Made by a program: the position numbers and the translations under genes
Assembly: GCA_016188575.1 (NCBI GenBank)
Contig: JACPHN010000172.1
Coordinates: 1-9,750, forward strand
Direction: 5' to 3'
Length of the DNA: 9,750 nucleotides
Origin: Candidatus Schekmanbacteria bacterium
GTDB taxonomy: Bacteria > CSSED10-310 > JACPHN01
Notes under the pieces: model-generated
Database searches by the model: none
The model's input: the letters and a program-made list of their open reading frames with translations, nothing else
What the model was told of the DNA's origin: nothing
Part shown: piece by piece, positions 1,055-9,750 of the stretch
Position numbering within the stretch: position 1 is the first letter of the stretch
Layout of the letters: every line of letters begins with the position of its first letter

Positions 1055-1300
1055 AGCCCTCTATGGAAGCGGGTGATGCGCCGCGAGAAGGCGGGGACGA
1101 TCTCGCACAGCTTGAGCGCGAAACAGCCGAGCAGCTGGAACGTCGCCTGGGCGTCGAGGCGCCCGGCGGCCACGTCGGCCTGGTAGGTGGGCCACAGAAG
1201 CTGGTCGAGCCGGCTCGGGCTCACCGCGTTGTCGAGAGACTCCAAATTCAGGCGTCGGCCGAATCCCAATGCTCTCTGCTTGACAGGCCTGCGGCTCGGT

Positions 1301-1323
1301 GGCACAGGCATCCTGCCTGTGCC
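1301..1323. repeat. Hairpin 1 inside the MITE
   Basis: A perfect 10-bp stem (GGCACAGGCA pairing with TGCCTGTGCC) closes a three-base loop, TCC. It has no U-tract. It forms a REP-like pair with the hairpin at 1346-1364. Confidence 0.8.
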
Positions 1324-1345
1324 GCGCGGCACCGGGCCATCTAGA

Positions 1346-1364
1346 CACAGGCTGAAAGCCTGTG
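1346..1364. repeat. Hairpin 2 inside the MITE
   Basis: An 8-bp perfect stem (CACAGGCT pairing with AGCCTGTG) closes a GAA loop. The stem core is the same as in hairpin 1, 22 bases upstream, so the two form a paired palindromic unit. Confidence 0.75.
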
Positions 1365-1734
1365 CCACCAGCCTGCACCTGTAAAGGACATTCGGCCGAC
1401 GCCCAAATTCAGCGCAATCTGGGCCAGGAGGATCGCTTGCAGCGCCTCGCGGAACGTTTCGGGTGGCGGCGCGGGCACGCGGTGCGCGGTGAAGCAACCC
1501 ACGAGTAGCTCGCCGGGGTAGATGTGCACCGCTTTGTTGGCCAGCAGGAAGCGGAGGGCCGCGGCCTTCTGCATCACCGTGGGCTGGTGAGGATCGGCGC
1601 GCGTCTTGAAGTAGCGCGTGACGAGCAGCGCGCGCTCGGCGCAAAGGTGCGGGTCGCGGCGCGGATGTCGCGATCCAGAGCGCGCACGCGGTCGGAGACA
1701 GTCACCGTCATGTCCATGCCTCCAGTCCAAGCTC

Positions 1735-8473: not shown

Positions 8474-9674
8474 ATGAGAAGGTTCTTCAACACCGCGGGT
8501 CCTTGCCGGCCGGACATGCACTACATGCTGCCCCCGGAACGACGCATCCCGGAGGTGCGCGAGCTCATCGATCGGGCACAGTACTTCGTCGTGCACGCGC
8601 CCCGGCAGGTGGGCAAGACCACGTGCCTGGCCACTCTGGCCGCGACCCTCACCGCCGAGGGACGCTACGCGGCGCTGCTGGCAAGCTGCGAAGCAGCACA
8701 GCCGGCAGGCGGTGACATCCAGTGGGGAGTCGACGCCATCGTGAGCTCTATCGATCGGCGCGCACAGCTCCTTCCGCCGGACCTGCGGCCCCCCGGGCTC
8801 GATGAGTCCACCGGGGTCCATCCGGGGAGCCGACTCAACCGGCACCTGAGCTCATGGGCACAGCAATGTCCTCACCCGGTCGTGCTCTTCCTTGACGAGA
8901 TCGACGCACTGCAGAATGAGACGCTCATCTCCGTGCTCCGCCAGTTGCGCGACGGGTATCAGGACCGGCCCTCGATGTTTCCGCAGTCGGTGGCGCTGAT
9001 CGGCCTCCGCGACGTACGAGACTACAAGGTGCGGGTGCGAACGGATCGGGACAGCCTCGGCACCTCCTCTCCGTTCAACGTCAAGGTGCGATCGTTGACG
9101 ATCGCCGACTTCACCGCGACGGAAGTTGCCGAGCTTCTCGGCCAGCATACCGCCCAGACCGGGCAACGCTTCACCGAGGAGGCCATGGCGCGGGTCTTCG
9201 AGCTCACGAGGGGCCAGCCCTGGCTCGTCAATGCTCTCGCCGCCGAGCTTGTCGACAAGCAGGTGCCGGACCGTACTGTGGCGATCCTGCCCGAGCACGT
9301 CGAGGCCGCCCGGGAGGTTCTGATCGAGCGCCGAGACACGCACCTTGATTCCCTCGTCGAGCGACTCCGGGAGGAGCGCGTACGGAGGATCGTGTAGCCG
9401 ATCCTCGTGGGCGAGCTCCTGCCCCGGGACGTCTACAGTGACGACGTCGCCTACTGCCAGGACCTCGGCCTCGTCCGATCGGGTCCAGCGGGGCTCGAGA
9501 TCGCCAATCCGATCTACCGAGAGGTAATTCCCCGTGCCCTGGCCTGGGTCCTCGAGCAAACCTTGCCCATCCCCCGTGCCCCCTACATCGCAACCGATGG
9601 CACTCTGCGCTTTGAGACGCTCATAGGTGACTTCCTGACCTTCTGGAAAGAGCACGGGGAGTTCCTGCTCAAGG
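8474..9674 (+). pseudogene. AAA-like ATPase/PD-(D/E)XK nuclease gene, copy 2, with in-frame stop and lost 3' end
   Basis: The ATG at 8474 follows GGAG (8460-8463). The first 307 residues form a P-loop ATPase: HAPRQVGKTT (41-50, Walker A of the A-x4-GKT form) and VVLFLDEIDAL with Asp141/Glu142 (Walker B). SVALIGLRDVRDYK and a helical part with LTRGQPWLVNALAAEL follow. At 9395-9397 the codon that is GAA in copy 1 is TAG. Past it the frame stays open and matches copy 1 up to 9674, after which the sequence is unrelated and the nuclease catalytic region is missing. A 307-residue ATPase without nuclease could still be made. Compared with copy 1 there are seven further substitutions, three of them synonymous. 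Readthrough or suppression is possible but unsupported. The parent family looks like an AAA ATPase fused to a nuclease domain, whose function is not established. Confidence 0.85.
9282..9674 (+). repeat. 393-bp direct repeat of positions 1-393
   Basis: The stretch aligns without gaps to 1-393 at an offset of 9281, with nine base differences (about 97.7% identity). The first 97 bases are identical. The match stops at 9674/393, where copy 1 continues into its nuclease domain and copy 2 does not. It is a paralogous gene copy, and the true length of the duplication extends upstream beyond the window on the copy 1 side. Confidence 0.95.
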
Positions 9675-9750
9675 CTTCGCCGCTGGCGAAAATCAGGCCA
9701 TCTGTGCCGGCCAGAAGTCGACCAGGGTGCGAATCCGAAATTTCAACTGA
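9675..9750. other. Unrelated sequence after the copy 2 breakpoint, with a hairpin
   Basis: Immediately after the breakpoint TTCGCC (9676-9681) pairs with GGCGAA (9685-9690) around a GCT loop. The remaining 60 bases to the window end carry no gene I recognise. The AAA/nuclease frame stays open through them but shows no similarity to copy 1. Confidence 0.5.

Follow-up and report, generated by a model that had tools for sequence, protein, structure and literature searches.

The window analysed here is the whole of contig C19 (9,750 bp) from the draft assembly of a Candidatus Schekmanbacteria bacterium, which comprises 9.2 Mb in 275 contigs and is 93.8% complete. Near-identical copies of part of a gene for an AAA-type ATPase (98% over the first 300 bases) lie at both ends of the contig, at 1-395 and 9282-9675; the gene copy starting at 8474 stops in frame at 9397 (window 8474-9397), and a related stretch adjoins an intact glycyl radical enzyme (GRE) locus on contig C119. 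Paralogue alignment and Pfam profiles place a GRE pseudogene on the minus strand of the window, with its 5' part, coding for a PFL-like N terminus, at 1412-1740 and its continuation at 1050-1242. The two parts are separated by a 153-bp element (1251-1403), which is flanked by exact copies of the 8-bp target site duplication (TSD) CAAATTCA at 1243-1250 and 1404-1411. Its terminal inverted repeats (TIRs) match over 14 of 14 bp, with GGCGTCGGCCGAAT on the plus strand at 1251-1264 and the exact reverse complement of it at 1390-1403. The right TIR is included in an extended, A-type end, GGCGTCGGCCGAATGTCCTTTACA (1380-1403, minus strand), common to most relatives of the element.

The core of the element is formed by two REP-like units. 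In the first (1299-1321, plus strand) a GTGG tag (1299-1302) is followed by the hairpin CACAGGC-ATCCT-GCCTGTG (1303-1321). The second, which lies beyond a 24-nt spacer (1322-1345) and is inverted (1346-1368, minus strand), consists of the hairpin CACAGGC-TGAAA-GCCTGTG (1346-1364) and CCAC (1365-1368), the reverse complement of GTGG; each hairpin is thus preceded by GTGG on its own strand. A 153-bp MITE with 14-bp TIRs and an 8-bp duplication had been predicted from the sequence alone, and it is confirmed to the base at 1243-1411. Modelled as single-stranded DNA, the element forms a single long hairpin with a folding energy of -55.7 kcal/mol (z = -9.7 relative to dinucleotide shuffles). It is short and devoid of coding capacity, and the open reading frames (ORFs) that cross it all enter from outside. 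Spurious ORFs run through it at window 1061-1378 and 910-1344 (e.g. GTGFQPVSRWPGAARHRQDACATEPQA), and these are a likely source of false protein annotations.

In-silico removal of 161 bp, comprising the element and one TSD copy, joins LAQIALN to LESLDN in a single frame. The rejoined peptide scores 85.4 bits against the Pfam PFL-like profile versus 31.3 and 39.7 for the separate halves, which abut on that profile, one ending at 268 and the other resuming at 271. The intact GRE paralogue of C119, in the same genome, is an 802-codon open frame with VGC and RVSGYS, the thiyl cysteine and glycyl-radical motifs of the family. In this paralogue the target is found once (CTGAATTTG; local reading ...LAQIALNLESLDNAVSP...) at the insertion site, between DNA flanks with 94-96% identity to those of the window copy. 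This natural empty site settles the insertion. The predicted restoration of the frame holds locally, across the LAQIALN-LESLDN junction, but does not yield a working gene, because the window copy has lesions of its own: an in-frame deletion has removed about 504 bp at ~1476-1482, at a CACGCGG repeat; the loss of one base shifts the frame near 1653; about 637 bp are absent upstream, at 1749-1757; and the likeness to the intact paralogue stops at ~1050 (deletion sizes being differences of alignment coordinates between the window copy and C119). The GRE copy that the element interrupts is a pseudogene remnant, frameshifted and truncated at its 3' end. Both deletions (1476-1482 and 1749-1757) are situated at direct repeats of 7-9 bp, as expected for short-repeat deletion.

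The element belongs to a large family in this genome. The TIR 14-mer, with at most two mismatches, has 541 matches in the genome versus 143 for a reversed control. The extended 24-bp A-type end, which includes a subterminal TTTACA (GGCGTCGGCCGAATGT..TTTACA), occurs 54+54 = 108 times (reversed-pattern control 0+0), and an extended B-type end with a GG-TTTC motif 44+42 = 86 times (control 0). The search for further TIR pairs proposed earlier recovered 104 non-redundant pairs of 60-240 bp from the fetched loci, establishing that other copies exist. Of these 104 pairs, 35 are flanked by 8-bp duplications in which no more than one base differs, against 0.42 expected from randomly re-paired flanks, and 17 TSDs are exact (0.06 expected). 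TSD lengths of 4-7 and 9-11 bp gave zero exact matches among the same pairs, so that only 8 bp is in excess. Roughly two thirds of the pairs are without a recognisable TSD, owing to decay, rearrangement or chance pairing. The target consensus, approximately S-R-A-W-W-T-Y-S, is AT-centred and weakly palindromic. Together with the empty site on C119, these genome-wide data support the earlier proposal of a non-autonomous, TIR-dependent transposition with 8-bp TSDs.

Family members measure ~87-212 bp and are dispersed in many copies, with about a hundred relatives sharing the same ends. Behind the common ends we recognise five main interior types, namely one of ~88 bp with an additional 150-bp hairpin-bearing form, one of 116/164 bp, one of 127 bp, one of 208-212 bp with shorter forms, and the 153-bp type of the window with about six copies, the interior cluster sizes taking in some spurious pairings. 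The 164-bp subtype (L089, L097) has a near-perfect hairpin of ~48 bp (TGATAGGGGTAGGAAGGGCCGG..), which the related 116-bp subtype is without. The window also holds a second, non-coding dispersed element of ~0.7 kb at 2086-2794, with inverted ends (CCCACTCGTT..) and an internal 29-nt inverted repeat (2429-2457/2548-2576). Stretches 85-90% similar to it occur in at least six other fetched loci, in one of which (L115) the stretch is positioned between two MITE ends.

That the feature might be a product of chance or assembly, i.e. repeats arising in GC-rich DNA or the chimeric joining of a contig, is a suspicion raised by the fact that the window is an entire contig of 9,750 bp with copies of one gene at both its ends. 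Against it stand the exact TIRs of 14 bp, the exact TSD of 8 bp, the empty site on a different contig, and dozens of copies, independent of one another, that have TSDs of their own. The folding z-score of -9.7, the 54+54 versus 0+0 occurrences of the 24-bp end and the 8-bp TSDs far above re-paired flanks exclude chance as the source of the inverted and direct repeats. The artefact reading is refuted by the C119 empty site and the TSD statistics, and we accord it a negligible probability.

A whole-genome search found nine CACAGGC hairpins, every one of which belongs to a copy or a fragment of the 153-bp type and holds the same position there. Two are in the window copy, two in a complete copy on C158 with its own TSD (CATTCTTG), one in a right-half fragment on C158, one in a 126-bp form on C194 in which the other hairpin is missing, one in a copy on C217 cut by the contig end, and two in a copy on C235 with a nested insertion at CTAG. 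This ~0.2-kb insertion (L272, C235:121500-123881, at ~1867-2070) has inverted ends of its own (AGCTTGTCGGAGAA) and is apparently a further miniature element. We observed no independent dispersal of CACAGGC hairpins outside the TIR unit or its fragments in this assembly, so that the second of the observations named beforehand as refuting the prediction, hairpins routinely found without TIRs and target duplications, was not made in this genome. Hence, in this genome, the hairpins have spread together with the TIR unit.

The original prediction had gone further, treating the hairpins as widely dispersed palindromes of which at least some travel within a TIR-bounded unit. Such travel is upheld for this genome, where none of the hairpins is dispersed independently of the unit; our conclusion is a local one that is silent on palindromes at large, because similar hairpins occur elsewhere without these TIRs. 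Ten unrelated viral contigs of IMG/VR carry a longer form, GGCACAGGC..GCCTGTGCC, with no family TIRs in their printed flanks, and at least three of the ten have a GTGG or CCAC-like flank; a sample of 144 other genomes did not contain the longer pattern. Among the fetched loci, hairpins of the form CCCCCGC..GCGGGGG are found four times between TIR pairs and nine times away from any TIR. As these occur both with and without TIRs, some cores may derive from palindromes that were free in the genome.

The anatomy of the core invites an alternative in which the REP-like pair is itself mobile, being a REPIN that owes its movement to a RAYT transposase and landed in TIR-bounded DNA, with the TIRs being incidental. 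The two GTGG/GTRG-tagged stem-loops form an inverted dimer with the tags outside and a 24-nt spacer, closely recalling the head-head (HH) REP dimers of the GTAG superfamily in the account of them given in PMC3733652, as well as the REPINs of PMC3116915; the solitary similar hairpins of unrelated viral contigs would also be in keeping with independent mobility. Yet, the TSD abuts the TIRs rather than the hairpin pair, and the hairpins of this genome are never found outside the TIR type and have a constant position in its copies. We accordingly regard this alternative as improbable: the data contradict REPIN movement as the way in which the hairpins now spread in this genome, though it may have been the origin of the core. 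Unlike REPINs, the dimer has a low copy number, never occurs outside the TIR unit in this genome, and moves with TIRs and a TSD. Since it is not independently dispersed here, we do not file the core as a REPIN.

A full-length transposon with the same ends, for which a search had been recommended, was not found among the fetched loci of this draft assembly; nor did these loci contain TIR pairs of 420 bp to 12 kb with a matching 8-bp TSD. The distinct family ends number 243, of which 217 have a known MITE interior; the ORFs behind four of the 26 others (L012, L051, L138 and L154) do not encode a partner, the sole transposase-like sequence being a remnant on C108. A domain search of the genome recovered no transposase domains of the ISL3 or IS1595 types, and the ten places with DDE_Tnp_1 domains have no close TIR within ~1.5 kb. 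On C108 (3694-4034) the end of the transposase ORF adjoins a TIR, its C terminus being ~90 bp from the family end, and the family could on this account be derived from an IS5-like element, which is what we take the ORF to represent, judging from our own reading of its sequence. Copies of this transposase at other places in the genome, however, cease to align shortly after the ORF ends, and they do not share the sequence that leads on to the TIR. With its relatives stopping before the TIR, the remnant was rejected as the partner, and we deem such a derivation very improbable. We also set aside a TnsA-like fragment beside a degenerate copy in C239, as its ORF ends inside the MITE and Tn7-like elements differ in their ends and make duplications of 5 bp; at L071:278-748, an ORF for a TnsA-like N-terminal domain terminates within a degenerate member of the family where a contig begins. 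Repeats of this kind can fragment a draft assembly, and the partner may be missing from the present one, given that it is a draft of 275 contigs, some of which break in or near family elements.

Bacterial MITEs include RUP, NEMIS, ERIC, Nezha and others, as covered by a review (PMC10969869) and a list (PMC3733652). Like these, the elements reported here are short (known range ~70-300 bp), non-coding and TIR-bounded, with a target duplication, many copies, strong hairpin folding and an occasional location within genes. They differ in having at least five unrelated palindromic cores on one set of ends and in that no partner was found. Our literature search found no described MITE family with this TIR and 8-bp target. 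The nearest precedent comes from PMC3733652, with REP dimers that are regularly enclosed in longer palindromes, namely GTAG-15 of Anabaena variabilis and CGTC-1 of H. neapolitanus, where a REP dimer likewise sits inside a larger inverted repeat. In contrast to those enclosing palindromes, as described there, the present element is terminated by 14-bp TIRs, has an 8-bp TSD, and is accompanied by sister elements whose cores are different. With its TIRs, TSD of fixed length, empty site, short non-coding interior and dispersed copies, the element is a MITE by every testable criterion except a known partner, and represents a new family with palindromic cores.

The weight of the evidence makes it highly probable that the feature represents one member of a MITE family of high copy number and was moved by a trans-acting transposase operating on the TIRs, with the REP-like core carried passively. 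Because TIRs are combined with a TSD, the enzyme acting in trans would most likely be of the DDE type, and it would recognise the 14-bp TIRs along with the subterminal TTTACA motif. When the 153-bp unit entered its target, which is AT-centred and weakly palindromic, a stagger of 8 bp led to the duplication of CAAATTCA, the landing site lying in a copy of a GRE gene that may already have been decaying. The inverted pair of GTGG-tagged hairpins, probably captured before amplification, would then multiply passively as the core of the MITE.

The exact family end was not found in the genome_contigs or viral_contigs collections. It was also not found in 59 other genomes, only seven of which are from the same phylum, with a pattern that was one N too long but nonetheless matched 41 ends in the source genome. 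A more far-reaching proposal is that, in this lineage, REP-like palindromes in general are transported by one TIR system, which would repeatedly have acquired differing hairpin pairs as exchangeable cores and multiplied them, so that they spread by TIR-dependent, DDE-type transposition rather than by RAYTs; we advance this tentatively, as the less likely outcome.

The spread of REP-like palindromes, and the origin of their singlets and dimers, are still unsettled, with the RAYT transposase being the usual candidate. The case presented here is that of a REP-like dimer at the core of a unit which is bounded by TIRs and for which there are both a clean target duplication and an empty site; it indicates that units of this sort can carry short palindromic repeats with them as they spread. 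It also adds, from a sparsely sampled phylum, a MITE family that is large, whose preference for certain targets can be measured, and that illustrates how repeats break up a draft assembly and yield spurious ORFs.
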